Source: a virus
Strand: one strand, 5' to 3'
IMG/VR virus record: IMGVR_UViG_3300033052_000001
Location: 1-34,766 of that record
DNA: 34,766 bases
Under the pieces are notes generated by a model. It had not been told where the DNA came from. It did not search any database and saw only the letters and a list, made by a program, of their open reading frames with translations. The translations under genes and the position numbers were made by a program. Shown here piece after piece: positions 14,150 to 30,573 of the stretch (position 1 is its first letter; each line of letters begins with the position of its first letter).

Positions 14150-16324
14150 TTAGCGAATGCCAATGATCATATAGCGATCATACATTTGGCAAGGCAGAGT
14201 TCCTTTGAATAGGATCTTTTCGAAGTCACATTGCTCTTCAAATGCTTCCAAGCTTGGAACGCTATTGACATGCTGCTCATGCTCGAAGTAGTTATTGCTC
14301 TGAACAACCATGAGCTTGCCTTTAGGAATTCGTTTGAACCATTCAGGCAAATCATCAATGTGCTCACAGCTTGTATTGATCAGCATATTCCAATCAGCAT
14401 GGAATCGAATCTTCTCATCACCAACAATCGCAGAAGTGTAGTGATAGTCGAGAGTCATCATGTCACCGGTGATGGCTTTGAATCGCCACCCATTGACAAG
14501 ATTATCCATGTTGAACAGATCAGCAATCTTCTCGCAACGGTGATCAATGTCCACACTGACGATTCGCTTGATCTTATCTGGATCGCGATAGAACTGGAAC
14601 ATGAAATTCGAGAGCGAACCAATCCATCCTCCCAAAATCATCATCGTCAAATCTTCTTCGAGATTGAGCTTGTTCAACTCATCAATCAGCCAGAACTTGC
14701 TGAGCAATTGGTCACGGCTGAAGCAATCACGAATCTCATTCAGCGTTAGTTGGACCTCTCGATCATAGAGCAAGCTCGTCAGATTGGTCAACGTCTTCGT
14801 GTCAATTCGGTTGTATTTTTCATACAACAGTTCCTGTTCTTTTTCGTTCATTCTCTTATCTCTGTAAAGTTTAAACAACCATTCAAAATCATTAATCTTT
14901 TGGAGCTGCTTGATTCGGCCGGCATAAGCAGTACCGTAATCTCGTCCCATCTTCGCACCAAGCAGAATCGCATCAGCAAATTGGCCTCGAGCATTAGTGC
15001 ACCAAGTATTGAGACGATATTCAGTTTCGGTATCGTCCTGATTTTTAATGATTTTCGATGCAAGCTTAGTACATTCGCGGAATGCACTTCGGAAAGCATG
15101 GAGTTCATCAGCATCAAATTTAGTCACTGATGCGACTTGATCCATGATCTTCACGCCGGATCCAAGAATCGTCGACATGTCAACCATGTTCTCAATTGCA
15201 TCTTTCTCAAACATGGCTTTCGAAAACAGCTTCAATCCACCATAGCCGTACTCGAGACCATTGGCTTCAATTCTTGCGGGCCAAATGTGGACATACTGCT
15301 TCTCATCCTCATAGAGCTGGACATTGACATCAAAGTCATTGACTAATTGTGAGTCACCATCGACTACAAAGAAGTTAGTCGTTGTTGCGAGATTGCTAGC
15401 GGCAGTATGTGCCTTAAGGATCCCATCAACACCGTGAACTCGCTTAGCATATGGATACTTGGCCTTGAGCAATTCAAAATGCTGATCCGCATTCGGCTCG
15501 TCATACGACATGAAGATGATGTCATATGGCTGAGGATCATGCTTGCTGACCTTCTCATCAATGTATTTGACTTGGCTACCGAAGTTAAAAGCAAAGGCAT
15601 CCTTGTCTGTAAACAGGCTTTGTTCAAGCTGATTGAGAAGGAGAATACCGCCATAGTTGCCTTCGGTATCTTGCCAGACATGAGTGTATGCAGCATCGTA
15701 CTCAGGAGGCTTGTAGCTGAAATCGAAGTCAACTGGGATGTAGTCATTGAGGATGACAAAGAAGTTGTATGTCTCAGCCGCTTTATACGCCGCCTGGTAA
15801 GCTTGTGACAGCGAGGATGCATTGACGCGTTTGGCTTCTGGCGCGAATGCCCTGACGGCGTCCTGGTTCCTCGATGAATATGGATCATTGACCGAGACGA
15901 CAATCACGTCTAGGGCTGCTTCCTTCGAAGCAATCTGATCCATGTACTTGATCCCGTCACCAATTTCATTCAAATCAGTTTTGTCTGAACGAAGAGCTGA
16001 TCGAGAAAACAAGAACACGCCATTGTAGCCAGGCTTGGTGTCTTCGCAATAGTTAACCTCGGCTTGATGATATTGCCAGATGTGAGTGTATGATTTGTCG
16101 AAGTCAGATGGAGAGTAGGAGAAGTCGAAGTCTACGAGTTCGAAGTGGTGATTTATCAAGAAGAAGGATGCCGTCATTGACATCCGTCCAGCTTGTTTGA
16201 AGGCGTCTAAGCCTTTCAACTGAGTCACACACTTCTTGATATGCGGATACGTTTTACGGTATCGCGCATATCGGTCTAGGCTTCGCTTAGATCCATCTGA
16301 TAGAAAGATAATATCTAAGGCCAT
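14150..16324 (-). CDS. Three glycosyltransferase-like modules fused to a methyltransferase-like domain
   Basis: A 724-residue protein. Three related modules of about 125 residues follow each other: about 1-132 (LDIIFLSDG), 138-260 (LDVIVVSVNDP) and 267-400 (YDIIFMSYDEP). Each has the A(K)RV block, a FF-strand and a HIW/HVW block. Only the third keeps the acidic VDGDS (Asp322-x-Asp324) expected for metal and sugar-nucleotide binding; the first two have INHHF and LNDYI there. The C-terminus (about 530-724) resembles a class I SAM methyltransferase: MMILGGWIGS, VSVDIDHRCE and a late NSVPSLEAF. The third module is also close to the protein at 27293-28231. No Shine-Dalgarno sequence is visible before the ATG. 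It is the last gene of the island and could cap or methylate a sugar product. Confidence 0.7.
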   Translation of the reverse strand: MALDIIFLSDGSKRSLDRYARYRKTYPHIKKCVTQLKGLDAFKQAGRMSMTASFFLINHHFELVDFDFSYSPSDFDKSYTHIWQYHQAEVNYCEDTKPGYNGVFLFSRSALRSDKTDLNEIGDGIKYMDQIASKEAALDVIVVSVNDPYSSRNQDAVRAFAPEAKRVNASSLSQAYQAAYKAAETYNFFVILNDYIPVDFDFSYKPPEYDAAYTHVWQDTEGNYGGILLLNQLEQSLFTDKDAFAFNFGSQVKYIDEKVSKHDPQPYDIIFMSYDEPNADQHFELLKAKYPYAKRVHGVDGILKAHTAASNLATTTNFFVVDGDSQLVNDFDVNVQLYEDEKQYVHIWPARIEANGLEYGYGGLKLFSKAMFEKDAIENMVDMSTILGSGVKIMDQVASVTKFDADELHAFRSAFRECTKLASKIIKNQDDTETEYRLNTWCTNARGQFADAILLGAKMGRDYGTAYAGRIKQLQKINDFEWLFKLYRDKRMNEKEQELLYEKYNRIDTKTLTNLTSLLYDREVQLTLNEIRDCFSRDQLLSKFWLIDELNKLNLEEDLTMMILGGWIGSLSNFMFQFYRDPDKIKRIVSVDIDHRCEKIADLFNMDNLVNGWRFKAITGDMMTLDYHYTSAIVGDEKIRFHADWNMLINTSCEHIDDLPEWFKRIPKGKLMVVQSNNYFEHEQHVNSVPSLEAFEEQCDFEKILFKGTLPCQMYDRYMIIGIR

Positions 16325-16358
16325 TTTTATTATTTTTATGTTGCAGCTAAATTATACT

Positions 16359-17834
16359 TCAAAAGACGTTCACGCCATAGTGATTTTGGAACATCAACGC
16401 ATCTTGCCAGGTATTGACGAGTGGTTGTCCTTTGATGTTCAAACTTGTGTTGAGAACAATTGGACATCCAGTCTTCTCATAGAACGTCTCAATCAATTTA
16501 TAGAATTGAGGATTCTGGTCATACGTCAAGGTCTGAACCCGAGACGTATTGTCAAAGTGACAAATTGCCGGGAGCAAATCTGGACGCTTGCACTTAGCAG
16601 TGAACTGCATGTATGGCGTCGATTTCTGAGGCATCTCGAAATACTGATCAGCCAAATGCTCAAGAACAACAGGCGCAAACGGCCTGAACATCTCACGCTT
16701 CTTGATCATGTTGACCTTGTCTTTGACATCAGCGCCTCGAGGATCGGCAATCAGGCTTCGATTGCCTAGAGCACGTGGACCATATTCAGCACGACCATTT
16801 GCGACACCAATGACTTGACCATCGATCAAAGCTTGAACAGCACCATCCATGTCAAATGGGCGTTTGATGTCTGTTCCAAGATAAGGGCCATGCCAATTTA
16901 GCTTCTCGTTCATGTAAGCAGCGACTGCACCAATCGAAGAGCCGGCATCACCTGGGTTCGGCATGATCCAGATATTCTCGAACAACCCTTCCTCAGCAAT
17001 GACGCTATTTGCTACGCAATTCAATGCAACCCCACCGGACAAGACTAGATTCTTCGAAGGCAAGTTCTTGCGAATCCAACGAGCAGTCAGCTTCATGTAC
17101 AGTTCAACAACGCGTTGCATTGAAGCCGCGATATCATAGAAATCTTGTTGCGATTGGAGCTCTGGCTTCCACCAACGAATTCCACGATGAACATTATGAC
17201 GAAGCTTGAAGTCTGGTGGATTATCCGATTCAAAGAATTCGAAAATAATCTCATCGAAGAATCGATCGCGATTGCCTAATGCAGCCATTCCCATGAGGAT
17301 GTATTCTTCTTCATTTGGCTTCAATCCACAACGCTGCGTCATCGCTGAATATAGGAGGCCAAGACTATGTGGATAACGTTGACTCCAGACCTTCTTCATG
17401 TGAGGGCCTTCGGCTTGCCAGATGCTAATGCAATCCCATTCGCCAATGGCGTCACAAACTAGGATCGAAGCATCATTGAAAGGCGAAGTATAGTAGCCAC
17501 CGGCCGCATGGCTTTCATGGTGTCCAACATACTTGATTGGAATCTGCTCGAGAGCGGCCCAGCTACGAAGATGGTCTTTTGGACTATCGCCTTTCAATCC
17601 ATCCCATTGTCCAGCATAAGCGAATCGAGTCTTCTTGAGAAATGGCTTTTCATACCAGATGATTTGATCTGGCGTTCCGTATTGGAACATATCCTCGAGA
17701 AGTGGCGAATTGATGTTGCCATCATTCTTTGTCCGGCTATAGCGTTCAGCATGACCAGCAAATAGGATCTCGCTATCATCAATCAATGCAACGGATGCAT
17801 CGTGTCCAAGCGAGACCACGCCTAATGATTTCAT
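16359..17834 (-). CDS. Carbamoyltransferase, NodU/CmcH/TobZ family
   Basis: A 491-residue enzyme that would move a carbamoyl group from carbamoyl phosphate, through carbamoyl-AMP, to a hydroxyl group, usually on a sugar. The N-terminal Kae1-like ATPase domain shows LGHDASVAL (His11, Asp12), the metal-binding GHHESHAAG (His105, His106, His109), LGLLYSAMT, and LSGGVALNCVAN with PNPGDAGSSIGA. The C-terminal YrdC-like-type domain (about 350-490) holds EYGPRALGNRSL and MFRPFAPVV, and ends with VLNTSLNIKGQP. It is close to the length of the short family members and complete. It follows the DUF5989-like mini-gene by 17 nt, a pairing seen in bacteria. The acceptor is unknown; the neighbouring glycosyltransferases make a glycan likely. 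Confidence 0.93.
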   Translation of the reverse strand: MKSLGVVSLGHDASVALIDDSEILFAGHAERYSRTKNDGNINSPLLEDMFQYGTPDQIIWYEKPFLKKTRFAYAGQWDGLKGDSPKDHLRSWAALEQIPIKYVGHHESHAAGGYYTSPFNDASILVCDAIGEWDCISIWQAEGPHMKKVWSQRYPHSLGLLYSAMTQRCGLKPNEEEYILMGMAALGNRDRFFDEIIFEFFESDNPPDFKLRHNVHRGIRWWKPELQSQQDFYDIAASMQRVVELYMKLTARWIRKNLPSKNLVLSGGVALNCVANSVIAEEGLFENIWIMPNPGDAGSSIGAVAAYMNEKLNWHGPYLGTDIKRPFDMDGAVQALIDGQVIGVANGRAEYGPRALGNRSLIADPRGADVKDKVNMIKKREMFRPFAPVVLEHLADQYFEMPQKSTPYMQFTAKCKRPDLLPAICHFDNTSRVQTLTYDQNPQFYKLIETFYEKTGCPIVLNTSLNIKGQPLVNTWQDALMFQNHYGVNVF

Positions 17835-17851: not shown

Positions 17852-17956
17852 TTAATAGATGAATGGATCGTACGACTTGGTTTTCTTTTTGTTGCGGAGA
17901 TACTTGATCTTCTTCTTGATCAGGAAGATCACGTATTTGATTTGTTCGATGATCAT
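17852..17956 (-). CDS. 34-aa mini-protein, DUF5989-like partner of the carbamoyltransferase
   Basis: A short gene between the SGNH-like and carbamoyltransferase genes. Its ATG overlaps the upstream stop by 4 nt (ATGA), and AAAGGAT lies about 8 nt before it. It encodes MIIEQIKYVIFLIKKKIKYL, then RNKKKTKSYDPFIY. The first part is an amphipathic or membrane-associated helix with many Lys, and the end PFIY recalls the C-terminus of DUF5989 proteins, which are about 50 residues long and usually encoded next to carbamoyltransferases. This one is shorter and lacks a full membrane span. It may tether or activate the carbamoyltransferase. The similarity is short, so the assignment is tentative; that it is a real gene is more certain. 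Confidence 0.6.
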   Translation of the reverse strand: MIIEQIKYVIFLIKKKIKYLRNKKKTKSYDPFIY

Positions 17957-18660
17957 AGGATATCCTTTAGATTTTCGTATACGTATTGTGCATAGTATTT
18001 ATGGCCCGCTTCATTGAAGTGATAGAACTTGGTATGCTCAAACCCAGCATTCGTCAGGACCTGATACAAGCTCAGCTTATCATCGAGCAGCATCTCTTTT
18101 CCTTTGTACGAAGACAACTGAAGGAACGGAGAAATCTGTCGAATGTAATGCTTGTAGAAGTGTGAGAAGTTGAATCCGTTCAGGAAGATGTAGTCAACTC
18201 CAGCTGAATCAAGGATTCCGCCCAATGCCAACATCGTGTTGTACGCTTTCTTGCAAGTCAAGTCCTTGTTAGCCAAGTATTCGTTCACAAATTTATTCAG
18301 ATACTTTTCTTCCTGGCTTCTGAATTCTCCAGACGCAGCAATGATGTCACGGCAGAATCCATCAAGCATTTCAAACTCAAATCGATTCGGCTCAGTCCAC
18401 ATGATTGCCATGAATGTATCGCCTTCCTCTTTTGGAGGATTGCGCCCAAGCCATTCAATCGTCTCACGAAAGATTGAATCATTTGAGGCACCAGATCTCG
18501 CGATGTTGATGAACTGACCGTTATGCTCTTTGTCCATCAACTCGTATAGATGCTTAGCCCATGTATGATTGCGTGTGACCTTGTCATCTGCATTTGGCCG
18601 GTCAACTAGAACTTCTTTGCCAGCCGTTTGGGAGCAGCCGTTAAACACATAGCGCATCAT
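17953..18660 (-). CDS. SGNH-like hydrolase, DUF6071-type
   Basis: A 235-residue protein. The N-terminal FNGCSQTAG (Ser10) is a block-I-like nucleophile motif, NIARSGASNDSIFRETIEWL matches block II with conserved Gly and Asn, and YHFNEAGHKYYAQYVYENL near the C-terminus supplies a His (214 or 220) as in block V. SGNH enzymes are esterases, acetyl-hydrolases or acyltransferases on sugars and lipids. The layout matches what I know as the DUF6071 phage family; that name is from memory. It overlaps its neighbours by 4 nt on each side. A role in adding or removing an acyl group on the island's product is inference. Confidence 0.65.
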   Translation of the reverse strand: MMRYVFNGCSQTAGKEVLVDRPNADDKVTRNHTWAKHLYELMDKEHNGQFINIARSGASNDSIFRETIEWLGRNPPKEEGDTFMAIMWTEPNRFEFEMLDGFCRDIIAASGEFRSQEEKYLNKFVNEYLANKDLTCKKAYNTMLALGGILDSAGVDYIFLNGFNFSHFYKHYIRQISPFLQLSSYKGKEMLLDDKLSLYQVLTNAGFEHTKFYHFNEAGHKYYAQYVYENLKDIL

Positions 18661-19769
18661 ACTAACTTTCCTTTAATCATTTTCAGTTGAGGAACAAAAT
18701 CATCCTTCTCAGACCATTTCGCGACATAGTCATCATACTTACGAATCCAATTAAATTTCTGCTCCGGTGTCAATGTTGTGATCGACATCTCTTGCGGATG
18801 CTCGAGAATCGATAGCGACAATGTGCATTTCGCTGGTGAGAAATACTCGATCAAATCAAAGATCGTATGGATGTTGTAGATGCTGATTGTTGAATTGACA
18901 TTCAATCCGGTGATCACATTAGCATCATACAATGCCTTGTAGTTGTAGAAGTTCCGCTCAACATCTTCCCATTTCGATCCAATTCGAATCTCATCATTGA
19001 CCTTGCCAATCCCATCAATCGACAACGAAATCACGACACCCTTGAACTCTTTGAACAAGTTGATATACGCATCATCGTACTTGGTTCCATTGGTAGTATA
19101 AGACAAGGTGATGTTCTTAGCAAACCCGCTATCGACGATCTGTTGCAGGAACTTTTTGTGATCCTTGATCATGAACGGTTCGCCACCATAGAACTCAAGC
19201 CACTCAACAACCTCAATGTTCTTGATGATCGAATCGAGGAATAGGCTTCCGCGCGATTCTAGATACAAGTCATAAGCTTTCTTGATCTCGATGATTCGCT
19301 TCTCATCACGAGGCGATTCGGGCTTGAACTGAGACATGATCGAAGACGAATGCTCTGGAATACAAGTCTTACACCTAAGGTTGCACAGGTTCGTGAGCTT
19401 AACTTCGATCAGCTTTGGGTATGTGATTCGACCTTCCAGAATGTCATCGATGATTGAATCATCCTTGAACATGTACTTGAGAAGTGCTTGGCGTTTCGAG
19501 ATCCCGCCACACGATTCTGCGGCGAGACAGACGCTCTGACAGGTCGGGTGAACTGCACCCTTTGTCAGGAACGTATTCCGCCACCTGGCGGCGTCCTGCG
19601 AACTCAGGGCAGCCTCCGGTGTATCAACATTGAAGTTGAACGTCGTCCCATCTTCCTTCTTGTATGGTTCATCGATCCAGCAGCAAGGATGGAAGTTGCC
19701 GTTCGAGAACGTGCTCATGACCAGAAAAGGAACCGCACACGACTTTTCTAGAAACTCTTCTTTATTCAT
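18657..19769 (-). CDS. Radical SAM protein with N-terminal auxiliary cysteines (1 of 5)
   Basis: A 370-residue enzyme. The radical SAM cluster motif is CNLRCKTC (Cys129, 133, 136), followed by the SAM-binding EFYGGEP. Upstream are further cysteines: Cys11, the pair Cys29-Cys30 (NFHPCCW) and CQSVC-LAAESC (77, 81, 87), the arrangement of phage 'twitch domain' radical SAM proteins in which an extra Fe-S site is built by the N-terminal half. Compared with its neighbours it has one additional cysteine (Cys87) and lacks the C-terminal FPEL end. Substrate unknown. The start overlaps the upstream gene by 8 nt. Confidence 0.85.
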   Translation of the reverse strand: MNKEEFLEKSCAVPFLVMSTFSNGNFHPCCWIDEPYKKEDGTTFNFNVDTPEAALSSQDAARWRNTFLTKGAVHPTCQSVCLAAESCGGISKRQALLKYMFKDDSIIDDILEGRITYPKLIEVKLTNLCNLRCKTCIPEHSSSIMSQFKPESPRDEKRIIEIKKAYDLYLESRGSLFLDSIIKNIEVVEWLEFYGGEPFMIKDHKKFLQQIVDSGFAKNITLSYTTNGTKYDDAYINLFKEFKGVVISLSIDGIGKVNDEIRIGSKWEDVERNFYNYKALYDANVITGLNVNSTISIYNIHTIFDLIEYFSPAKCTLSLSILEHPQEMSITTLTPEQKFNWIRKYDDYVAKWSEKDDFVPQLKMIKGKLV

Positions 19770-20982
19770 AGTTAATCAGTTTACTTAATTCTGGAAATGT
19801 AGTAGCAAAGTTTTCATGTCTGATCCCATCAATGTCCTTGACTTGAGCCTTGAACTCATCGAGGTATTGTGAGTCATCGGCTGAATTCATAAAGCTAATG
19901 ACTTGATGAATCTGACCCATATGGCGACCATTCCCATCGGCTTCAGCAAAGGCGAGCAATTTGTCCTCAATGACTTTCTTCTGATCCTTGGTGAAGATTG
20001 TGGCTTTGAAGTGCAATGGATTGAACACAAAGCTGATGTTCAATGGTAGACCATCCTCTTTAATGAATCCATAGTCCCTAAAGTCATTGATGATTTCGGG
20101 CAGATAGAACACATTCAAGGCCGACACCGTCAGATTGATCGAGATCTTCTGATAGCTGTTGTCGATCTCAGCATGAAACTTGTTGAAGTGATCAACGATC
20201 GTTTGGAACGAGGATCCGCTTCGCATGTAGTCATACTTATCGCGTGATGCATCGATGCTGGCATGAATCGTCAGACGCGGAATGTTTTTCCAGATATCAA
20301 TGACGTTATAGTTCTTCCAATTCAGGTTCGAGAAGTTCGTGTTGTACACGACCGTTTTATCAGATAGGTCAGTCTTTTCGAGAATATCAAAATGCTCCGG
20401 AGTGACAAGCGGTTCGCCGCCAGCAAAGTAGAACACATCGATGTCATCGGACTTATCAAGGATTTCTTGGTGGATGTCTTTGTTCTCATTTGAGATTTTC
20501 ATGACTTTGGCAATCCAAATGTCATTCTTATACTTAATTGTTTCAGCTGCCCAGCTCGAGCTGAAGTGAGGCCCGCAAGTTCTACACTTCTGGTTGCACA
20601 CAGTCGAGAATCGAACGTCCATGTACTTCATTTTGAAGTTGGTCAACGTCCCATCTGGCTGCATGGTATCGATGACTTGTTCAACCTCATCATCGAGATA
20701 CCGGTCAAATGACTTTTTGAAGTCGAGCCGGAAGCTTGAGCCTGTGACCTGTTCCGAACGAATGCACGTAGAGCATTCCGGAATCGGTTGGCCATCTCGC
20801 ATCCGAACTCGAAGATCCTTTTGCTTAGGACTGTTGGCAACATCATCGATCGATGAAAAATCTCTGATGTTGCCGACCTTATTTTGCTCGTAGTCATTCG
20901 CGCTGAAACAGCATGGGAAGACATCGCCGCTTGACCAAATCTGAAAATGGACATACGGCAACAAGCAAAATACTTTATCCAT
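19762..20982 (-). CDS. Radical SAM protein with N-terminal auxiliary cysteines (2 of 5)
   Basis: A 406-residue enzyme with CNQKCRTC (Cys129, 133, 136) and YFAGGEP. The auxiliary cysteines are Cys6, the pair Cys24-Cys25 (GDVFPCCFS) and CSTC (70, 73). It ends with TTFPELSKLINYE, an ending like that of the 431-residue protein upstream (ATFPELESLKKYG), so these two are recent paralogues. Radical SAM enzymes of this type use a 5'-deoxyadenosyl radical for difficult C-H chemistry on sugars, peptides or nucleosides. Which substrate applies here cannot be seen. It overlaps the neighbouring genes by 8 nt on both sides (TATGGATAA-type junctions). Confidence 0.88.
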   Translation of the reverse strand: MDKVFCLLPYVHFQIWSSGDVFPCCFSANDYEQNKVGNIRDFSSIDDVANSPKQKDLRVRMRDGQPIPECSTCIRSEQVTGSSFRLDFKKSFDRYLDDEVEQVIDTMQPDGTLTNFKMKYMDVRFSTVCNQKCRTCGPHFSSSWAAETIKYKNDIWIAKVMKISNENKDIHQEILDKSDDIDVFYFAGGEPLVTPEHFDILEKTDLSDKTVVYNTNFSNLNWKNYNVIDIWKNIPRLTIHASIDASRDKYDYMRSGSSFQTIVDHFNKFHAEIDNSYQKISINLTVSALNVFYLPEIINDFRDYGFIKEDGLPLNISFVFNPLHFKATIFTKDQKKVIEDKLLAFAEADGNGRHMGQIHQVISFMNSADDSQYLDEFKAQVKDIDGIRHENFATTFPELSKLINYE

Positions 20983-22270
20983 ACTTCTTCAAACTCTCTA
21001 GTTCAGGGAATGTTGCAAAGAAATCTTGATCGCGGAACTTATCCAGGTTCTCAGTATAGCCTAAGAAATTCTGAAGCAAATGACTATTGTCATTAGCATA
21101 CAAGAAATCAATCAGGCTCTTCAATGGATCAACATTGATTGGGTACCCAGGCTTAGCTGGCATCGTGTCATGTACCCATTGAATCAAATCTTCAATGCCC
21201 TTTGCTGCCTTCTTCTTTTCTTCCTCAGGAAGAATCGTCATCGAATAGATGTCCGGATATGTGAGCGGATTCAGATTGACGACATGAACAAAGTAATGTT
21301 GCAAGTGTGGAGCAGGAATATTACTCTGGAAGTTGTCATTCTCCCAAATCAGCTTAACCAAGTCTGGGAAACTATTGATGTTGAAGATCGATAGAGTTGG
21401 ATGGAACGCCAGTGTCAGGTTTTTGAAGTTCTGATTCTTGATATCCAACAGGTTCTGATAGACTTCATCCCAATCACCGCCATTCCGAATGTAGTTGAAC
21501 CGTTGGCCAATATCATCAATACTTGCCGAGACATACACGTTTTCAAAGTCATGCCAGTAATCAAATGCGTGCTTCTTGCCGAATTTGAAACGGGTCATGT
21601 TCGTCGAGTAGTGAAGCTGAACATCCTTGCGATTCGCCTTTTGAAGCTCCTCGAGAATGACCCAATGCTCTTCCATCATCATTGGCTCGCCGCCAGCGAA
21701 GTGGATCGACTTGACCTTATCAATGTTCTTCAATACATCTTCAAGAAGAATATTGTTGCGATCTTCTGGGAGCTTGATCAGCGCCGATGGATTGCCTTCG
21801 ATGTTCCAAATCTTCTTATGGTCCTTCATCCATGAAGACGATAGGCCTGGGCCACACGAACGGCATGATAGATTGCACAGGTTCGAGAACCTGAAGTCCC
21901 AATGGATCAGGTTGAAGTCTTCGACGGTTCCATCTTCTTTAGTCGATTGGACAACATCGAGTTCGCTGTGCATGTACTTGTTGTTCATGCCAATGCGAAG
22001 TGATTGGAATCCTTCAGCTTCCTTGGTATAGCAACGGCCGCAGATGTTTGCATCTGGGGTGCCATTGAGCATGTCAACACGAAGCTTCTTGAGTTTGTCG
22101 GAGTTCCAGATCTCCTCAAGCGATTGGTTGTTCAGGTTGCCAAGAACTTCAGTGGCTGGGCTCAAGCAGCAAGCAATCACGTTGCCATCCGGGAAGCTAT
22201 GGAGGTGAGTCCAAGGGGCTGTGCAGAATACTTTCGAAGCCGAAAGATCCTTGATTTCAATTGTTTTCAT
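20975..22270 (-). CDS. Radical SAM protein with N-terminal auxiliary cysteines (3 of 5)
   Basis: A 431-residue enzyme with the textbook phage layout: FCTAPWTHLHSFPDGNVIACC (Cys16 and the pair 34-35), CGRCY (77, 80), then CNLSCRSC (132, 136, 139) and HFAGGEP. The N-terminal half resembles the SPASM or twitch part that usually follows the radical domain, here in front of it. It starts 14 nt inside the end of the SGNH-type gene, the longest overlap in the cluster, and ends overlapping the next radical SAM gene by 8 nt, so three radical SAM genes are translated as one coupled block. Substrate unknown. Confidence 0.9.
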   Translation of the reverse strand: MKTIEIKDLSASKVFCTAPWTHLHSFPDGNVIACCLSPATEVLGNLNNQSLEEIWNSDKLKKLRVDMLNGTPDANICGRCYTKEAEGFQSLRIGMNNKYMHSELDVVQSTKEDGTVEDFNLIHWDFRFSNLCNLSCRSCGPGLSSSWMKDHKKIWNIEGNPSALIKLPEDRNNILLEDVLKNIDKVKSIHFAGGEPMMMEEHWVILEELQKANRKDVQLHYSTNMTRFKFGKKHAFDYWHDFENVYVSASIDDIGQRFNYIRNGGDWDEVYQNLLDIKNQNFKNLTLAFHPTLSIFNINSFPDLVKLIWENDNFQSNIPAPHLQHYFVHVVNLNPLTYPDIYSMTILPEEEKKKAAKGIEDLIQWVHDTMPAKPGYPINVDPLKSLIDFLYANDNSHLLQNFLGYTENLDKFRDQDFFATFPELESLKKYG

Positions 22271-23255: not shown

Positions 23256-24241
23256 CGTTGTAGAAATAACTTTAGGTCTTCAGTGTTCCATTGGAAAAAT
23301 CTGTTTGCAAAGGCCAAATGATTGTTTGGACCCGGATGGCAGAAATCTCGTCCACATTTCTGTGGATATTTCTGATAGTCTTGCAAACCATAGCCAAATG
23401 ATTCTTCAAAGATGTTGATGTCCAATGATTCTGGCATATAGTCAAAAATCAGTTTGGCAAGATCAACATGGCCATCGATATTGTACTCAGTTGGCATCCA
23501 TCTCAAATCATCGCTTTCGAGTTCAGCGATAGGAACTCGTCCCTGCCAAGTCGCCACTCTCAAATACGTTCCATGTGCTTTACACAAGGCATTGATAAAC
23601 AACAAGTTCTTATAGAAGTCATTGATCAAATTCGACAGACGGAATGTCTGAGTGTAATGCTTGAAGAAGTCTCTGATCGCCGGGCTTCCACTCGGCGTCG
23701 GAACACTCGGGATGTAATCGGTTGGAGCCAATGCCTTGACAAAGTTTTCGGGATAAACTTCTTGCCTGAAAATCGATGGCATCAAGACACATAACACTTT
23801 TGGCTTGAGCTTCAAGACTTCAAATGCGCCATAGATCCGACGAGTGATCCCGCCAACTCCAAGCCCACCACGCCCGATGTTGTAATAGCCAAGCTCCATA
23901 TCGAATTCTTTCTCAATAAGCTTGTTTAGTTGTGAGGTCCAGATCAAGTCTTGTGGAAGTCCTTCGCCTTCGGTGAATGAACAACCAGCATAAAGGATCT
24001 CACCATATCGCTTGAACTCATCGGATCGATACCCATGCGAATTGTACGAATAGTCGATTTCACCTGGCTTGAATGTCAGCAAAGGATCTTTGCCATTAGC
24101 AATATTGGCTTTGTAATTTTCTTCCGTATCTGTGGACACAGTCCATTTGACTTTTGTGCCCTTACGCGTATCGGTGAGTCCATCAACGATAGCATTTTGG
24201 TCCCAGATCTGGACACTGAGAAGAGGATGTGGAGTACGCAT
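23252..24241 (-). CDS. SGNH-type hydrolase or acyltransferase, paralogue pair member 1
   Basis: A 329-residue paralogue of the 22257-23255 protein with the same blocks: YNSHGYRSDEF, LYAGCSFTEG (Ser88), NIGRGGLGVGG and GRDFCHPGPNNH (Asp299, His302). Differences cluster in the N-terminal third and in the C-terminal tail, which suggests different substrates rather than redundancy. No Shine-Dalgarno sequence is visible before the ATG at 24241; a 13-bp hairpin ends 7 nt upstream, so initiation may depend on it. It opens the next translational unit of the island. Confidence 0.8.
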   Translation of the reverse strand: MRTPHPLLSVQIWDQNAIVDGLTDTRKGTKVKWTVSTDTEENYKANIANGKDPLLTFKPGEIDYSYNSHGYRSDEFKRYGEILYAGCSFTEGEGLPQDLIWTSQLNKLIEKEFDMELGYYNIGRGGLGVGGITRRIYGAFEVLKLKPKVLCVLMPSIFRQEVYPENFVKALAPTDYIPSVPTPSGSPAIRDFFKHYTQTFRLSNLINDFYKNLLFINALCKAHGTYLRVATWQGRVPIAELESDDLRWMPTEYNIDGHVDLAKLIFDYMPESLDINIFEESFGYGLQDYQKYPQKCGRDFCHPGPNNHLAFANRFFQWNTEDLKLFLQR

Positions 24242-24247
24242 AAAAGG

Positions 24248-24293: not shown

Positions 24294-25844
24294 TTACACG
24301 CCTTCTTTAGGAGGGACGTAGCCTTGTCCACCAGGATTCACACCAGATGGTTCGAGGATCCAGCCCTCTTCATTAGCACGATCGAGCAATTCCTTCTGGT
24401 GCGGTTGCAGCTCAGTTGTCTGCTCGCCGCTGACTAGCTTAATCGGAATGATCTTGGTCTCTGGGATCGAGTCATACCATTCGGCCAGCATCGGGAACGT
24501 ATCTTTGAAGTTCTTGCCTCGGCGTTGATCGTATTGCATGAAGAAGCTTTTGAAGTCACGCTCACGAGTTTCAATGCTCGAAGTATACGCATGACCTTCA
24601 TGGACTTCACGCAGATATGCGATCAGACGTTCGATTCCTTCAAACTCCATTTGGTGCAGCAATCCACGACCACGATCGGATTGAGGATGCGCAAACCAAT
24701 TAGTTTGCAACCACGATTCTAGATGATCAGCACGCTCATGACGAATTGCTTCTGGCAAAGTCACCACGCTTTGGAAGCTTGGGAATCGCAGGATGTTGAA
24801 GCTCATGAACGCATGATTCCGGCCATACTGTGCCTTGATCTTAAGCATCTCGTCCATGAACTCGGTAATCGAGAACAGGCACAGGCTGTTGATCGTCATC
24901 ATCATGTTCAATCCCTTGACATTGCCTTCGCCAAGCATCTTGTGGATGTTAGCAAGCCAAGTGCCCCAGACCAAGCCATCACGAATGTATTCGGCTTGTG
25001 CACCAAATGCTTCATTCGAAGTGTAGAGCTCAAATCTCTTGAAGCTATGAGAGACATCACACAGCTTTTGGATCAAGGCTGGCTTTGCACCCAGGTTTGA
25101 ATTGACCGCAAGCTGGACATCGCACTCCGGGTGATTCTTCCACCAGTCCATGAGCTTCCAAAAATCTGGACTCATTGTTGCTTCACCACCAGTAATCCGA
25201 AGTTCATCTAGCGAATGTTGAAGATCATTCTCCCACCATTCCATGAACGCGGCAACATATGGATTCCCTTCATTCTTGAGGCCATACGGCTGGGCCCATG
25301 ATCCATCCTGCTGAAATGCGCCGCCACCATCTGAAACAAGATTTTGGTACGGACCATTGACTCTAACATCACTCATCCAAGTCGTCGAAAACGATGGATT
25401 GCAATATGAACAAGCGAAGTTGCATGTGGCATCGAATGCAATCTCTAGAGTCTTGAGATCGACATCGCCAGAAGAACCATGAACGGTTGCGGCTTCACGC
25501 AGTTCATCATCAGTGTAGATGACGGATTTGAAGACACGATCGCTGATATGCTCTTTGCCTAGGTCTTCAACCTTCCAGCAGTATTCACATTCAGCTGGCC
25601 GTTCGCCGCGAAGCATTTGTTCACGGACCATCTTCTTGTATTTGGTGTTGTGCAACGCCTTGTAATTAGCTTGAACTTCTTCAAGTGGAACCTTATGGGC
25701 TGGTGGGTGATGACATGATGCAGTCATGCCGCTCCCAAGCCAAACCGTGGCATTGTACCATTTTGCCCCGCAGAAGCTGGGGCTGACCGAGTCAATCGCT
25801 CGGTCCCGATAATCCTGGTAAGATTCGTCAGGACGCTTTGGCAT
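24294..25844 (-). CDS. Radical SAM protein with N-terminal auxiliary cysteines (4 of 5), GGEA variant
   Basis: A 516-residue enzyme with CNFACSYC (Cys141, 145, 148). The SAM-binding motif reads RITGGEATM instead of the usual GGEP. Auxiliary cysteines are Cys25 (SFCGAKW), Cys44 (ASCHHPPAH) and CEYC (86, 89); this group has one Cys followed by HHP where the other three have a Cys pair. It is a close relative of the 25861-27291 protein (CNFxCxYC, SCHHPxAH, an N-terminal NYR/DYR block). The C-terminus has a 50-residue extension with a Gly-rich tail. Substrate unknown. AGGAT precedes the ATG. Confidence 0.87.
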   Translation of the reverse strand: MPKRPDESYQDYRDRAIDSVSPSFCGAKWYNATVWLGSGMTASCHHPPAHKVPLEEVQANYKALHNTKYKKMVREQMLRGERPAECEYCWKVEDLGKEHISDRVFKSVIYTDDELREAATVHGSSGDVDLKTLEIAFDATCNFACSYCNPSFSTTWMSDVRVNGPYQNLVSDGGGAFQQDGSWAQPYGLKNEGNPYVAAFMEWWENDLQHSLDELRITGGEATMSPDFWKLMDWWKNHPECDVQLAVNSNLGAKPALIQKLCDVSHSFKRFELYTSNEAFGAQAEYIRDGLVWGTWLANIHKMLGEGNVKGLNMMMTINSLCLFSITEFMDEMLKIKAQYGRNHAFMSFNILRFPSFQSVVTLPEAIRHERADHLESWLQTNWFAHPQSDRGRGLLHQMEFEGIERLIAYLREVHEGHAYTSSIETRERDFKSFFMQYDQRRGKNFKDTFPMLAEWYDSIPETKIIPIKLVSGEQTTELQPHQKELLDRANEEGWILEPSGVNPGGQGYVPPKEGV

Positions 25845-25860: not shown

Positions 25861-27291
25861 TTATGAGAGAATATTTATATTGTGGCCATCATTGACATTC
25901 CGACAATCTTCATAGAACGGAACCAGCTCAGGAAAGACTTCATAGAAGTTCGTATCGCGGCGCTCATCGTATTGCTCATGGTACAGGAAGAAGTCCTTCA
26001 TGTTCTTGATCCGATTGTCATCGGAACCATTCATGAAGTCAACGAGGCGTTCGACTTGATCAATCTCTTCTAGATAGAACCGACCAGCTCGATTTGGACT
26101 CGTGTTTCGAGTATGAGCCATGACAAACGCTTTCCATTCTTCACCATACTTTGCCTTGATCTCTGCTGGTAATGTTCTCAGGCTGAGATAAGTCGGCCAA
26201 CGAATGTAGTTGATCATCATTGGAATCCGATTGTGCGCATCGTTCTCATTGTACTCAGTCCGAAGCGTCCAAATCAGATCTAGGAAGCCTTTAAACGTCC
26301 CAACGCATAGCGAGTTCATCGCGACCATGAAGTGAAGGCGTTGCTGATCATCAGTGTTCGACAGGAAGTAACGAACATTGGCAACAAACTCATCATACTT
26401 CAGGCCATAGCGGATATACTCCGCTGCAGAACCAGTGGCTTCTAGGCTTGTGTAGATATCGAATGTCTTGACTTTGCCTTTCAGCTTGTTGCTGTATTCG
26501 ACTAGCTTGTCAATCAGCTTCTTTGGAACACAAAGGTTCGTGTTGACAGCGAGCTCTAGATCAGGGCGAGGATTCTCAATTAGATAGTCGAAGACTCGCC
26601 AAGTATGCTTTGACAACAGCGGTTCGCCACCAGTGATCCGGAAGACCTTGAGAGAATTGATTAGTTCAGGCCACCACTTCCAAAATGCTTCAACATATGG
26701 ATTGTAGTCATCGCGCTTGATCGCATAGCGACCAGTGTGCTTGAGCCATTCGATGTCATGCGCTGTTTGTTGAGACAGTTGGTATGGACCATGACGTTCA
26801 ATCTCTTCCATCCACTTGGACGAGACATCTGCGGTGCAATACGTGCATTTGAAGTTGCAAGTATTTTCGAAGGCAATCTCAACATAGGTCGGATTGAACT
26901 GATGACCGACGCCAGAGTCAATGACTTGAGGCATAACATCCATGGCCCAAGGCGAGATGCTCTTGTATGTTCTATCTGAGAGGTGATCGTTGCCAGCGTT
27001 CTCAATGTTCCAACAATACCCGCATTCTGGTGTTTGAACACCCTTAAGCATGTCGGCTCTAGCGACAAACTTGATTGGCGTATTGTGAAGGGCTTTTGGA
27101 TCTTGTTCGACTGCGGTTGGGTCTACCTTGTGTGCCGATGGGTGGTGGCACGAATGAGTGAACCCATTCCACAAATAGATTGTAGATTGGGTCCACTTGG
27201 CAAGGCAGAAAGTTGGTGAGACTTTATTGATCACCTCATCACGGAGGCGATAATTTTCCTCCATGATGATTTGGTTTCTGCTTTTTTCCAT
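25861..27291 (-). CDS. Radical SAM protein with N-terminal auxiliary cysteines (5 of 5)
   Basis: A 476-residue enzyme and first of the radical SAM genes in transcription order. It carries CNFKCTYC (Cys145, 149, 152) and RITGGEPLL. Auxiliary cysteines are Cys29 (TFCLAKW), Cys48 (HSCHHPSAH) and CGYC (90, 93). With the 24294-25844 protein it forms a second subfamily in which a His pair may replace one cysteine of the auxiliary site. It starts 1 nt after the stop of the glycosyltransferase-like gene. Whether it binds a second Fe-S cluster cannot be told from sequence. Confidence 0.88.
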   Translation of the reverse strand: MEKSRNQIIMEENYRLRDEVINKVSPTFCLAKWTQSTIYLWNGFTHSCHHPSAHKVDPTAVEQDPKALHNTPIKFVARADMLKGVQTPECGYCWNIENAGNDHLSDRTYKSISPWAMDVMPQVIDSGVGHQFNPTYVEIAFENTCNFKCTYCTADVSSKWMEEIERHGPYQLSQQTAHDIEWLKHTGRYAIKRDDYNPYVEAFWKWWPELINSLKVFRITGGEPLLSKHTWRVFDYLIENPRPDLELAVNTNLCVPKKLIDKLVEYSNKLKGKVKTFDIYTSLEATGSAAEYIRYGLKYDEFVANVRYFLSNTDDQQRLHFMVAMNSLCVGTFKGFLDLIWTLRTEYNENDAHNRIPMMINYIRWPTYLSLRTLPAEIKAKYGEEWKAFVMAHTRNTSPNRAGRFYLEEIDQVERLVDFMNGSDDNRIKNMKDFFLYHEQYDERRDTNFYEVFPELVPFYEDCRNVNDGHNINILS

Positions 27292-27292
27292 A

Positions 27293-28231
27293 TTAGCCTA
27301 CGACGATTTCCTTTTCGAGATTCATTGCATAATGGCTTGCAACTTGCTCATGCGTTGCCTTGAAGAATTCACTTTGCTGAGGTGCCAATGTGGTCAGCTT
27401 GAGGCCTAGCTCCTTGCGGAGAATCAAGCCAATGCGACCTGCTTCTTCGGCCAGCTTGCCGTTGGTATCGATGGTCGACTTGCCTTGGAACTTGTCTAGC
27501 TGTTCGGTCGCAAACTGGACAAACCAGTCATAGTCACTGATCTTGGCGATCTCAAAATCTGGATCCAAGTTTGTCATGTAGATCCCGAGACGTGTGCCAT
27601 AGATAGCAGCCCAGCCATGGTCGACATCAGAACCAACGCAGGACCACACCAGGAGGCGGCGAAGATTGGCGTCATGGATTACTGACTGGATCTTCTCCGG
27701 CGCAATCTTACCGCCCCTATCCAACGTCATCTTACACCCTTCGCGGAATCCAGCACGGAACGCTTGAAGCGCCGACCCATTAGGGCGAGTTTCAGACAAG
27801 GTCGAATGAAGTTGCAGGTACGTATTGTCCCAGCAGAAGTCAAGCTTGTATTCGTCCGATTCTGCGTTCTCATGGGTCTTCATGTTCAAGACCCATTCAC
27901 GCGGCCAAAGCTTGACCCCGCCATTGCCGTAGACCAGGCCATTGATCACGTTGATCGAATTCCAGGACAGAGCACATTTGCTGTACTTATCTGGAATGTC
28001 AAGGACCATGTCGAACATCCGATCAACCACAATATTGTCACCATCAATAGTGATGAAGCGATCGGTTTCACTTTGACGAGCACAGGCTTTATGAGCGTTG
28101 TCAAATCCCTTGACGCCATGAACTCGTTTGGCCCACGGGGCCTTTTGCAGAAGATCTGCCCAGTTCTCTTCACATTTCGGCTCGTCGTACGAAATGTAAA
28201 AGACGTCAAAGTCGCTCATTTGTTGCTTCAT
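27293..28231 (-). CDS. Glycosyltransferase-like protein, same module as in 14150-16324
   Basis: A 312-residue protein. The N-terminal 200 residues contain FDVFYISYDEP, WAKRVHGVKGFDNAH and TIDGDNIVV (Asp63-x-Asp65), which line up block by block with the third module of the 724-residue protein. The DxD-like pair and the predicted alpha/beta order fit a GT-A-type nucleotide-sugar transferase, but this family has no assigned reaction that I know. The last 100 residues (with a DYDWFVQFATEQLDKF block) also have a counterpart after the third module in the long protein. AAGGA precedes the ATG at 28231 and decides the start over the Met at residue 5. Confidence 0.65.
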   Translation of the reverse strand: MKQQMSDFDVFYISYDEPKCEENWADLLQKAPWAKRVHGVKGFDNAHKACARQSETDRFITIDGDNIVVDRMFDMVLDIPDKYSKCALSWNSINVINGLVYGNGGVKLWPREWVLNMKTHENAESDEYKLDFCWDNTYLQLHSTLSETRPNGSALQAFRAGFREGCKMTLDRGGKIAPEKIQSVIHDANLRRLLVWSCVGSDVDHGWAAIYGTRLGIYMTNLDPDFEIAKISDYDWFVQFATEQLDKFQGKSTIDTNGKLAEEAGRIGLILRKELGLKLTTLAPQQSEFFKATHEQVASHYAMNLEKEIVVG

Positions 28232-28264
28232 GGTTTTCCTTATAATTATAGTGTTTGGCCTTAT

Positions 28265-28822
28265 TTATTCGATGACCAGGCCATACGACTCGAACACCTT
28301 CCGCGTGAACAAGCTGACCTTGTTTGGATCATGCTTAAATGGGAATGACACCGATCCAGACAGAATGACCTGAAGCATGTTGACCTTGAGAATTTCGATC
28401 AGCTTATTTGGATCATTCTTTGCTGATACATAAAACTCAATGAACTGCTTTGACGGATGGACCGAAGTGTAGAGAGTCGTAGCGTAGGATATTAACTCCT
28501 TTTTCAACACGACTTCCATCATTTCATCCTTGATTTTAACCGTGATCTCTGGGTTCGTCACTCCTTCCTTCATCAACATCGGAGTATAAAAGAATTGAGC
28601 AACGGCCTCATTAACTTTTTCCTTCTTGAGGAAGTGAGCTTTGTCTCCATCAAAGTACACGATGTAATCATTGATCGTGTGTGGCGAATGAACAAAGCTA
28701 ACGCCCAACTCACGTTCGATCTTGATGACGTGAGCTGAATCATCTTCCTCTAGAGCTGGCGAACTCTTGCAAACCCGTAAGGTTTGCTTGTCGACATAAA
28801 TGTACCAAGCGTCATCACTCAT
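28265..28822 (-). CDS. Hypothetical protein between glycosyltransferase genes, 185 aa
   Basis: A 185-residue protein with no recognised motif. It begins MSDDAWYIYVDKQTLRVCKS, has several strand-like stretches with aromatic residues (about 45-75) and a helical C-terminus. A TTG two codons earlier keeps the frame open to 28828, but AGGAG 7 nt before the ATG at 28822 decides for that start. It overlaps the upstream glycosyltransferase gene by 8 nt. Its place inside the island suggests an accessory or substrate role; nothing in the sequence shows which. Confidence 0.75.
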   Translation of the reverse strand: MSDDAWYIYVDKQTLRVCKSSPALEEDDSAHVIKIERELGVSFVHSPHTINDYIVYFDGDKAHFLKKEKVNEAVAQFFYTPMLMKEGVTNPEITVKIKDEMMEVVLKKELISYATTLYTSVHPSKQFIEFYVSAKNDPNKLIEILKVNMLQVILSGSVSFPFKHDPNKVSLFTRKVFESYGLVIE

Positions 28823-29684
28823 TGCCAACTCCTAGTTTTCGTTCCATTGTGGCGATCATTTCGTCAGTCAACCAATCTTTTAGGTGGTAATGGAATGGGA
28901 GTGTTTGGAGATAATTCCCAATGAACAACTCACAGTCCTCGGTGAAATAGGTTTGGATAACACGATTCCATTCCTCCGGAATTGGAGGATGGCCGTGATC
29001 AACCGCCCATTTCTGCAATTGAGTCTTCATGTGAACGAACGTTGGAACATCGAGATGAATTCGTTGGTTCCAAGATTCGACATCGAGGATCTTTGCAGCG
29101 ATTGCAAAGACGACATCGGTGCTGACAAACTTAGGCCGATCATCCGGTTCAGTGAATTCACCAAAGTAACGTTGCCAGTTATCGTAGATGTGCTGAGCTT
29201 GTTTGAACAACTCATAGACATTGTCCGTCTTCTTGAAATAGAAGAACGCAGTGTACACGTTTGGTAGGTTATTCTGCGTGAAGACCTTGCGGTAATAATC
29301 CGATTCGACTAGCTCATTTCGATAGGTCGAAGCATTAGTTGCAAAGACGGCTTCCGAATGCTCAAGAACATTCCACCATTCTGAGATATCAGAAGTGAAT
29401 AGCATGTCTGCATCTAGCTTGATCGTCTCATCATAAGGCGTCATGTAGATTGCTTTCCATTCGTTCTCAAGCTTCCATTCGGATCGCTCAGCTGCATCGC
29501 CCCATGGAATCTCAATGATCTGATCAAAGGCGTGGACGTATTCGTCTGGGACCTTATATCCTGGTGTGATTCCAATTGAGAGCTTATTGTGTTCCTTTTG
29601 GGAGACTTTGAGAGAAAGTGCCAAAGCGTAAGCGAAGCGAACATAAGCATCTCCTTGTGCGATAGTGAAAAACCCTTTACTCAT
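28815..29684 (-). CDS. GT-A-type glycosyltransferase 2 (GT8-like)
   Basis: A 289-residue protein. The start GFFTIAQGDAYVRFAYALALSL fits the first strand and helix of a nucleotide-sugar-binding fold, and TPYDETIKLDADMLF (Asp91-x-Asp93) is the DxD metal site. TAFFYFKKTDN and the block DVVFAIAAKIL follow in the order seen in GT8-like enzymes. It shares YDETxxLDxDxL and FYFKK with the 29677-30573 protein, so the two are paralogues. It is translated from an 8-nt overlap with that gene. Donor and acceptor sugars are unknown. Confidence 0.8.
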   Translation of the reverse strand: MSKGFFTIAQGDAYVRFAYALALSLKVSQKEHNKLSIGITPGYKVPDEYVHAFDQIIEIPWGDAAERSEWKLENEWKAIYMTPYDETIKLDADMLFTSDISEWWNVLEHSEAVFATNASTYRNELVESDYYRKVFTQNNLPNVYTAFFYFKKTDNVYELFKQAQHIYDNWQRYFGEFTEPDDRPKFVSTDVVFAIAAKILDVESWNQRIHLDVPTFVHMKTQLQKWAVDHGHPPIPEEWNRVIQTYFTEDCELFIGNYLQTLPFHYHLKDWLTDEMIATMERKLGVGNE

Positions 29685-30573
29685 CTTTGTAAATCTCTAG
29701 TAGTTGGTCAGAAAATTCCATCATCGACAGTTTGTTCATAACGTGGACATTATGGCCTTTGACCTTGGTGATATAGAACTCGTGGTCATGGTTATACGTA
29801 GTGAACCGATTGTCGTTGTACATGATCGTGATGCTGTCTTTGTCGACCTTGTGCAAGTGGTCACGATCCGTTGAGGTCAGAATGAATGGAGTTGGAAGAC
29901 TCTTAAACTCATCATTCTCCAGGAACCCATTGAGGATGTGCAACGCAATTGAGAACGCAAAGTCATTGCGGAATAGATATCCACCAAACCCATACAAGAG
30001 TTTGAAGTAATCCCAACGCTCACGAATCAAAGCAACCATGTCAAAGATCTGCTTGACACGTTCGCACTTCTTGAAGTAAATCGCAGTGGCCCAGACCATT
30101 TTGATCCCAGTCGGATTTAACCTGAACTCTTCACCAGAAAGAGGAATATGATCGAGGCCTAATGCAACGTTGTTGATCATGAAATCTTCTTCACTTCCCC
30201 AGATCGTGTTCATCGAGGAGTCTTGAATCAGAAAGTCAACATCGAGCAACAGTGTTTCATCGTAAGGCGAAAGCTCATAAGCTGAACCACGATTGCCATT
30301 GATGAATCGATCAGCAACCGAGTGATATTGAGTGTTCGAATACTTGCGGATGTTGTCAAGACCATTTGTAGCATCATCGATAAGGATCTTATCGAACGTG
30401 GCTTCAATTTGTTCTTTGTAGCCAGAGTCGTCTAAGCTCTTTGTTGAGGTCACGACCGAAATCGGTAGATCTTTCCCAAGATGCCGTTTGCACATCTTGG
30501 CGTTGATCAATGCGATTTTCAGGTAGTTGATATGGTCGTTATTGGTAGCAAAGAATAGGATACCTTTCGACAT
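29677..30573 (-). CDS. GT-A-type glycosyltransferase 1 (GT8-like)
   Basis: A 298-residue protein paralogous to 28815-29684. It shows GILFFATNNDHINYLKIALI at the N-terminus, SPYDETLLLDVDFLI with the DxD site (Asp111-x-Asp113), AIYFKKCERVKQIFDM and NDFAFSIALHIL. The HVM near the C-terminus is a possible metal ligand. It starts 1 nt after the stop of the 124-residue protein and so connects the island to the tail gene cluster. It is the first enzyme of the island in transcription order. Target unknown: a virion protein or a host surface glycan are both possible. Confidence 0.8.
   Translation of the reverse strand: MSKGILFFATNNDHINYLKIALINAKMCKRHLGKDLPISVVTSTKSLDDSGYKEQIEATFDKILIDDATNGLDNIRKYSNTQYHSVADRFINGNRGSAYELSPYDETLLLDVDFLIQDSSMNTIWGSEEDFMINNVALGLDHIPLSGEEFRLNPTGIKMVWATAIYFKKCERVKQIFDMVALIRERWDYFKLLYGFGGYLFRNDFAFSIALHILNGFLENDEFKSLPTPFILTSTDRDHLHKVDKDSITIMYNDNRFTTYNHDHEFYITKVKGHNVHVMNKLSMMEFSDQLLEIYKDE

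Follow-up and report, generated by a model that had tools for sequence, protein, structure and literature searches.

A conserved fibre, glycosyltransferase and radical SAM gene core within a tail-gene island of uncultured phages

We have analysed a stretch of viral DNA (IMGVR_UViG_3300033052_000001; 34,766 nt at its full length, hereafter the window) in which an island of enzyme genes is inserted between two tail-tube-type genes. The core of this island, which runs from a fibre gene through several glycosyltransferase (GT) genes to a radical SAM gene, is shared in unchanged order by dozens of further uncultured phages. In our view the island is best read as modifying the fibre late in infection, probably with a tailored glycan, and we give this reading a probability of roughly 0.58. 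The protein matches of the window stay below 60% identity, and its source is a T4-like phage, probably a jumbo phage.

Gene content of the island and its flanks

Fourteen genes on one strand (the minus strand, as for all features given below) fill positions 14150-30573, with spacings of -14 to +118 nt. This single-orientation run and its tight packing agree with the initial annotation, in which the spacing was incompletely described as overlaps of 4-14 nt and gaps of 0-35 nt; gaps of 118 and 52 nt also occur. Of the flanks proposed there, the structural gene at 31049-32362 was recovered, whereas clear baseplate-type genes were not: the other side is occupied by a tail-tube-like gene, TUBE2 (12809-14068; PHROG 4542), preceded by its own TATAAATA at 14093-14100. 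The fibre-side flank holds the gp19-like tail tube gene (32453-33034; PHROG 4542, E 4e-43) and, beyond it, the sheath gene. In 12 relatives, the tube gene and TUBE2 adjoin with no island between them.

The structural gene encodes a fibre-type virion protein, FIB34, with N-terminal matches to PHROG 14394/15511 and a C1 domain at residues 148-421 (E 4e-25). Related FIB proteins match PHROG tail fibre, and a C1 homologue, gp360 of Pseudomonas phage PA5oct, is annotated 'ESI-MS/MS' and is sited among fibre genes; no cassette was found around it. A Foldseek search with the AF2 model of FIB34 gave no significant structural match. Two genes had been absent from the earlier gene list, namely 30575-30949, which encodes the conserved 124-aa protein P33 between the fibre and the GTs, with the C1 gene directly before it, and 28265-28828, which encodes the small protein P30 (187 aa), defined by gene order.

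Three of the four GT-like proteins described previously are GT-A/DxD enzymes, and the DxD motif is invariant in all three. GT31 (28815-29684) is probably GT8/glycogenin-like (profile match to glycogenin-1, E 4e-7), and GT32 (29677-30573) is GT-A-type and weakly glycogenin-like (profile match, E 0.03); in both cases the similarity is partial and covers about 100 residues. Glycogenin initiates a glycan on a protein tyrosine. Since a profile search of GT29 (27293-28231) against PDB sequences gave no convincing match, its structure was predicted (AF2, pLDDT 90.7), and Foldseek related the model to NDP-sugar transferases, mostly with probabilities of 0.7-1.0 and with weak E values. Together with an invariant DGD, this points to a GT-A-fold nucleotide-sugar transferase. 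The fourth protein (14150-16324), a long protein at the right border of the island, has GT29-homologous regions by blastp to GT29-family proteins; a methyltransferase domain was not confirmed in it, as Pfam gave an insignificant match alone.

All five proteins previously called radical SAM enzymes belong to NF033640, the NCBI family 'twitch domain-containing radical SAM protein', with scores of 250-384 bits against a curated cut-off of 170 bits. Their motifs are intact: CxxxCxxC, at least four N-terminal Cys (auxiliary cluster) and GGEP/GGEA were present in 5/5. The core enzyme RS28 (25861-27291; 336 bits) carries the N-terminal auxiliary-cluster domain, and its seven cluster Cys were all invariant across 20 diverse family members. 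A second enzyme, RS27 (24294-25844; 311 bits), has TATAAATA 27 nt upstream, at 25872-25879. The other three, at 20975-22270 (384 bits), 19762-20982 (328 bits) and 18657-19769 (250 bits), are accessory.

The remaining accessory genes include an O-carbamoyltransferase of the NodU/TobZ type (16359-17834), as initially proposed. It has both Pfam domains (PF02543 and PF16861), matches PHROG 1601, carries HHESH and finds NovN, GdmN and TobZ in the PDB. The two-domain architecture and the HxxxH motif are common to it and the NodU/TobZ/NovN enzymes (PHROG 1601). On the other hand, it differs from them in being one accessory gene, not seen in the close relatives L006-L009, and in scoring 154 bits against the NodU equivalog NF041651, below the cut-off of 1000 bits. 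Two of three suggested SGNH-type hydrolases were recognised by motif as putative SGNH-like hydrolases/acyltransferases. These are paralogues, 42% identical, at 22257-23255 (YAGCSFTEG, DFMHP) and 23252-24241 (YAGCSFTEG, DFCHP), both with GCSFT..G as block I and DxxHP as block V. The third, 17953-18660, is a DUF6071 protein (PF19547, 33 bits, above cut-off) that carries part of the motifs (FNGCSQT), and no SGNH Pfam model matched any of the three. A DUF5989-like mini-protein was not recovered, its sole candidate being a 34-aa ORF (17852-17956) with no Pfam match.

The accessory set (carbamoyltransferase, SGNH and extra radical SAM genes) is gained and lost between close relatives. Islands of other phages carry a UDP-sugar dehydrogenase and a galactosyltransferase-7, and nucleotide-sugar dehydrogenases and epimerases also occur in other phages.

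A conserved core coupled to a fibre gene

The core has the order C1 fibre, P33, GT32, GT31, small protein, GT29 and RS28, often followed by RS27. The small-protein slot is occupied in most relatives, by P30 or by c7, c34, c19 or c52. When 70 non-redundant loci were gathered via GT32 alone, independently of the radical SAM gene, the C1 fibre gene lay at most three genes upstream in 53/54 loci with enough upstream sequence, and P33 was present in all 54. Among the 36 loci having 9 kb downstream, GT31 and GT29 were found in every one and an RS28-family radical SAM gene in 35. This order is kept in about 70 non-redundant loci despite protein identities of about 30-80%. The C1 gene immediately precedes P33 in 41/42 cases of the RS28-found set and in 66/74. 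The initial annotation had named unlinked, independently varying genes as evidence against its proposal; in our comparison the core is instead linked to the fibre gene, whereas the accessory genes do vary independently. Since fibre genes and unrelated cargo share a hypervariable place in T4-like phages, the fibre linkage could partly be positional.

RS28-family members occur in at least 495 IMG/VR stretches and GT32 homologues in at least 591. Among 50,697 phage records, no match was found for P33, one member of its family included, or for GT32, GT31, GT29 or RS28, and no cultured phage bearing the cassette was found.

Five copies of TATAAATA, a T4-type late-promoter-like motif, occur in the window, against 0.57 expected. 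All are in coding-strand orientation, each starting 20-37 nt ahead of a gene, and the one at 33072-33079 precedes the tube, the fibre and the cassette. Across all relatives, the motif showed no coding-strand enrichment. The late-promoter argument holds for the window and, for L007-L009 only, is suggestive. A virion glycosylation system would be expected to link its GT genes to a gene for a virion protein and to express them late; the linkage was found here, and the promoter motif points to late expression.

Poly-proline tracts were found in only 2 of 164 C1 proteins (L042 and L242), and both loci carry a prolyl-hydroxylase-type 2OG-Fe(II) oxygenase between the C1 gene and P33. We take this pairing as a hint to the substrate of a fibre modification; as L042 and L242 are related phages, it counts as one evolutionary event. 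A different oxygenase lies in the same interval of L256.

Proposed function and alternative explanations

We infer that the core would assemble a short chain of sugars on the product of the fibre gene directly upstream. In this scheme, the glycogenin-like GTs would start the chain and lengthen it, GT29 would add a further sugar, and the twitch-type radical SAM enzymes may alter a sugar, or a nearby residue, by radical chemistry. The exposed end could be tailored by the variable set, that is, by the extra radical SAM enzymes, the O-carbamoyltransferase and SGNH acyl-transfer or esterase activity, and elsewhere by nucleotide-sugar dehydrogenases and epimerases. The outer set differs from phage to phage, and the fibre surface would therefore be diversified; the benefit may lie in receptor binding, fibre protection or escape from host defences. 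A sugar chemistry is suggested by the GT8-like and GT-A folds, by the sugar-type relatives of the carbamoyltransferase and by the UDP-sugar dehydrogenase and galactosyltransferase-7 seen elsewhere. It is also suggested by three Bdellovibrionota chromosomes in which a GT29 homologue and an RS28 homologue are no more than about 7 kb apart, against about 0.1 such cases expected by a rough estimate. The earlier proposal of a late, virion-added sugar product stands as the best-supported reading, considering the core-fibre coupling, the coding-strand late motifs and the fact that no membrane transport or ligase gene was seen. Its wider form, in which a wide range of uncultured phages bear, on receptor-binding fibres, a glycan with a carbon skeleton altered by radical SAM enzymes and with a swapped outer end (carbamoyl, acyl, radical edits) as a diversifying 'glyco-code', is tentative.

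Instead of the fibre, the target of the enzymes could be a glycan on the host surface (O-antigen or capsule), altered in the infected cell so as to block superinfection; we consider this unlikely, though it is the strongest alternative. The study of pelagimyophage host recognition clusters favours this kind of reading, host O-chain modification, for their glycosyltransferases (PMC7029224), and LPS synthesis commonly uses GT8-type enzymes. Homologues outside phages point the same way. In Bdellovibrionota, the RS28/GT29 homologues sit in loci of a glycan type, in which Wzm/Wzt-like transporters and membrane GTs were recognised by eye; such loci fit envelope glycans and speak against the fibre model. 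On the other hand, no flippase, lipid-carrier GT, ligase or polymerase was seen in the first-set cassettes, and a simple hydropathy scan of them detected no multi-TM protein and neither hallmark of Gtr-type serotype conversion (membrane flippase, lipid-carrier GT). Late-promoter timing would also be late for superinfection exclusion, and the strict coupling to one fibre-domain family would be left unexplained.

A flagellin link was also considered and set aside: one Bdellovibrio RS28 relative lies beside flagellin genes, but among the matches listed for 60 genomes of Bdellovibrionota hardly any further RS28 homologue was near a flagellin gene, a result consistent with chance.

Less probable again is a direct action of the radical SAM enzymes on the polypeptide of the fibre, on side chains or backbone as in RiPPs, with the GTs working separately; this would still be a virion modification. 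Many weaker matches of the radical SAM proteins are peptide maturases, and an oxygenase is inserted beside the poly-Pro fibres. Two loci of Bdellovibrionota place RS28 next to an S74-chaperone protein and a PqqD-like recognition protein, a lead only. Yet we recognised neither a PqqD/RRE nor a short precursor in the window, and the GT29-RS28 pairing, which occurs outside phages too, points to sugars.

Carbamoyl-, acyl- and glycosyl-transfer are found together in antibiotic pathways. Phage GTs can also hypermodify DNA (PMC12619734). Production of a small molecule or modification of the phage DNA is nevertheless very unlikely, considering that no scaffold-making, resistance, export or DNA-base-synthesis genes were seen in the window and that neither fits late expression and fibre linkage. 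Mere cargo, unrelated auxiliary genes in a hypervariable hotspot, is the least credible explanation: swapping of the accessory part even among the closest relatives L006-L009 would suit it, and single accessory genes are possible cargo, but for the core it is contradicted by the order kept across diverged proteins.

If the fibre is indeed what these enzymes modify, a large set of uncultured phages would carry sugars of unusual chemistry on the very structure that meets the host, and sequence-based host prediction would not see them. The unexplained GT and radical SAM genes of hypervariable fibre islands would become directly testable, radical SAM chemistry would join viral protein modification, and the enzymes would be candidate new carbohydrate enzymes.

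Comparison with known systems

The closest described system is the host recognition cluster of pelagimyophages and cyanomyophages (PMC7029224), a hypervariable island among the structural genes of T4-like phages that holds fibres, many GT8-type GTs and radical SAM cassettes. The window island matches it in content (fibre, GTs and radical SAM genes, again among structural genes) and differs in position, as the host recognition cluster sits between VrlC and gp14 and the window island between the gp19 tube gene and TUBE2. That cluster is also defined by its variability, and the text consulted gives no account of a fixed C1-P33-GT32-GT31-GT29-RS28 core. In the open-licence literature, we found no description of a fixed fibre-GT-radical SAM core, PMC7029224 alone being closely relevant. 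The initial annotation was fair in calling the end product undescribed, with the addition that similar islands have been reported under the name of host recognition clusters.

By description, the island can also be likened to moraphages, large phages of aquatic origin, among whose widely shared genes four orthologous groups are annotated as putative GTs; the text makes no mention of radical SAM (PMC12619734). Virion glycosylation of mycobacteriophages (Freeman et al. 2023, as cited in PMC12619734) likewise places glycans on phage virion proteins. There, the C-termini of capsid and tail-tube proteins are modified, whereas the presumed acceptor in the window is of fibre type, and the island adds radical SAM, carbamoyl- and acyl-type enzymes to such a system.

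A probable jumbo-phage fragment and its enzyme island

The 34,766-base IMG/VR virus record encodes a contractile-tail module, with the sheath at 33165-34766 (PHROG 10581), the tube at 32453-33034 (PHROG 4542) and a second tube-like protein, TUBE2, at 12809-14068. A TnsA-like endonuclease (12381-12809) is syntenic with relatives' genes annotated as head completion, and the terminase fragment at 3-464 has a relative in Phosso annotated as terminase. Among the closest relatives of the sheath are those of the jumbo phages XacN1, RAS14, Phosso and Atu_ph07, so the window is probably a piece of a jumbo T4-like myovirus genome. A NUMOD3/GIY-YIG (SegE-like) homing endonuclease gene (534-1136, + strand) adjoins the terminase fragment on the opposite strand.

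Nine otherwise unrelated proteins (1142-2218, 2215-2607, 4044-5228, 7251-7556, 7572-7922, 7979-9649, 9721-10893, 10890-11570 and 11567-11953) share a similar short start peptide ending in [LI]xE, for example MKTFKEFLLE, MKTFKEFISE, MITFKQYLLQE and MKIDELFE. Internal head proteins of T4 have a capsid-targeting sequence with a prohead-protease site that looks much the same, and the nine may be enzymes that are packaged into the head and injected. They include an AAA ATPase, a weak GNAT match and a transglutaminase-like protein; 9721-10893 and 4044-5228 look ADP-ribosyltransferase-like by eye and gave no Pfam match.

The island is a same-strand run of 14 genes (14150-30573), as the initial annotation described, and the tight spacing that it reported held in part, with distances ranging from -14 to +118 nt. 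The five radical SAM proteins are all members of the curated NCBI family NF033640 (cut-off 170 bits, scores 250-384) and carry a complete CxxxCxxC motif and N-terminal cysteines. The proposed carbamoyltransferase (16359-17834) is a two-domain enzyme related to NovN, GdmN and TobZ. The four glycosyltransferase-like assignments stood in part: by profile, GT31 (28815-29684) resembles glycogenin (E 4e-7) and GT32 (29677-30573) does so weakly (E 0.03), and GT29 (27293-28231) has a confident predicted GT-A nucleotide-sugar enzyme fold (pLDDT 90.7; Foldseek). Of the three SGNH-type hydrolases, the two genes within 22257-24241 are SGNH-like by motif and 17953-18660 is DUF6071; Pfam confirmed neither a methyltransferase domain nor a DUF5989 protein in the island.

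A core coupled to one fibre domain

The radical SAM protein RS28 (25861-27291) has 495 relatives among IMG/VR candidate stretches, and neither it nor GT32, GT29, GT31 or P33 (a 124-aa protein, 30575-30949) had a match in 50,697 phage records. In the best 80 RS28 loci, where relatives' genes were called by a mechanical ORF caller, the recurring order was fibre proteins, C1-domain protein, P33, GT32, GT31, a small variable protein, GT29 and RS28. In the window, the C1 domain occupies residues 148-421 (E 4e-25) of the fibre-type protein FIB34 (31049-32362). The C1-domain gene lay directly before P33 in 41 of 42 cases. Since this set was selected on RS28, the search was repeated from GT32, yielding 70 non-redundant loci. 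C1 lay at most three genes upstream in 53/54, P33 was present in 54/54, GT31 and GT29 in 36/36, and an RS28-family radical SAM gene in 35/36, counting loci as independent with only near-identical sequences removed.

Twelve relatives, some of them almost identical, have the tube and TUBE2 genes next to each other, as does Sinorhizobium phage Phosso; in the window and locus L007, the fibre gene and the entire island lie between them. Loci L258-L260 share a right border of carbamoyltransferase, GT29-like gene and TUBE2. In many other phages, the core comes after a very large protein (up to about 2,400 aa), a putative VrlC-type baseplate gene product, and protein cluster c44; VrlC borders the pelagimyophage host recognition cluster (HRC; PMC7029224). 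These different neighbours, tube/TUBE2 versus large protein/c44, indicate that the core moves with its own fibre gene.

On the other hand, all that lies downstream of RS27 (radical SAM, 24294-25844) in the window is already exchanged between its four nearest relatives, L006-L009, which carry c25 genes, SGNH plus radical SAM, or radical SAM plus SGNH. Elsewhere, islands encode a methyltransferase, a UDP-sugar dehydrogenase or a fusion of galactosyltransferase-7 with a lectin, and epimerase-like or RmlC-like genes were spotted by eye. Part of the RS28 loci show a second architecture, with RS28 after other glycosyltransferases: tail fibre with an S74-type end, c10, c13, c11 (DUF6734), c4 (Methyltransf_24), c5 (GT2), c2 (GT7 plus lectin) and RS28, with sheath and tube as well in several loci. 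Thus, a different glycosyltransferase set is again joined with a fibre and RS28.

Viral-labelled contigs L010-L013 and L018 lack the fibre cassette but have operons in which at least six radical SAM genes are joined by a carbamoyltransferase and an SGNH-like gene; L011 and L012 also encode a multi-TM protein, which in L012 is a CHASE2-cyclase. Related radical SAM genes stand in a row (L001:15001-22740) beside unannotated genes in Vibrio phages K566/K567, the only isolate-type phages found to have such a run, and one of its proteins matches the 20975-22270 product at 24% identity.

The fibre as putative substrate

Four lines of evidence point to the C1 fibre protein as the putative substrate of the cassette enzymes. 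The hydropathy scan, covering 1,459 ORFs of the RS28-found set, revealed no multi-TM protein in its cassettes, which therefore lack the lipid-linked machinery that modification of a host O-antigen would call for; L198 has one small membrane-like protein as an insertion. Poly-proline tracts occur in only 2 of 164 C1 proteins, and both loci (L042:2471-5704 and L242:5802-9063) place a prolyl-hydroxylase-type 2OG-Fe(II) oxygenase between the poly-proline-linker C1 gene and P33. The L042 protein, the one tested, scored 26.1 bits for PF13640, slightly below the cut-off of 27. An oxygenase exactly where the fibre has poly-proline is expected if cassette enzymes work on the product of the gene immediately before them, and a viral proline hydroxylation system is possible; the two loci are related and represent one event. 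L256 has a different oxygenase, spotted by eye, in the same slot.

TATAAATA, the sequence of the T4 late promoter, occurs five times in the window (0.57 expected), always on the coding strand and at a distance of 20-37 nt from the gene that follows; tube, RS27 and TUBE2 are among these genes. In phage PA5oct, which has no cassette there, the C1 homologue gp360 is surrounded by fibre genes and its annotation records detection by ESI-MS/MS. A structure search with the AF2 model of FIB34, whose mean pLDDT was 74.7, gave no significant match.

Radical SAM chemistry and known systems

Of 241 Bdellovibrionota genomes, 60 contain RS28 homologues. Three of the 10 full-length GT29 homologues there have an RS28 homologue no more than about 7 kb away (0.1 expected by a rough estimate), so RS28 and GT29 are probably partners in one pathway outside phages as well, in glycan-type loci. 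This favours sugar over peptide as the putative target of RS28 chemistry. A peptide role is nevertheless possible, given two Bdellovibrionota loci where an RS28 homologue adjoins genes for a PqqD-like and an S74-chaperone protein; the one at L176:8127-8969 resembles a precursor/recognition/maturase trio. In a Bdellovibrio MAG (L090:9968-12472), the RS28 homologue has an additional radical SAM domain fused to it and lies beside two flagellin genes. A general flagellin link was rejected, as almost no other homologue among the matches listed was near a flagellin gene.

Virion glycosylation is known in mycobacteriophages, as cited in PMC12619734. The nearest islands described are the pelagimyophage HRCs (PMC7029224), which combine fibres with GT8-type transferases and with radical SAM cassettes in the structural region and which the authors read as modifying the host O-chain. 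New here is the fixed core of fibre, P33, three glycosyltransferases and radical SAM enzyme, coupled to one fibre domain, together with the accessory set of the window.
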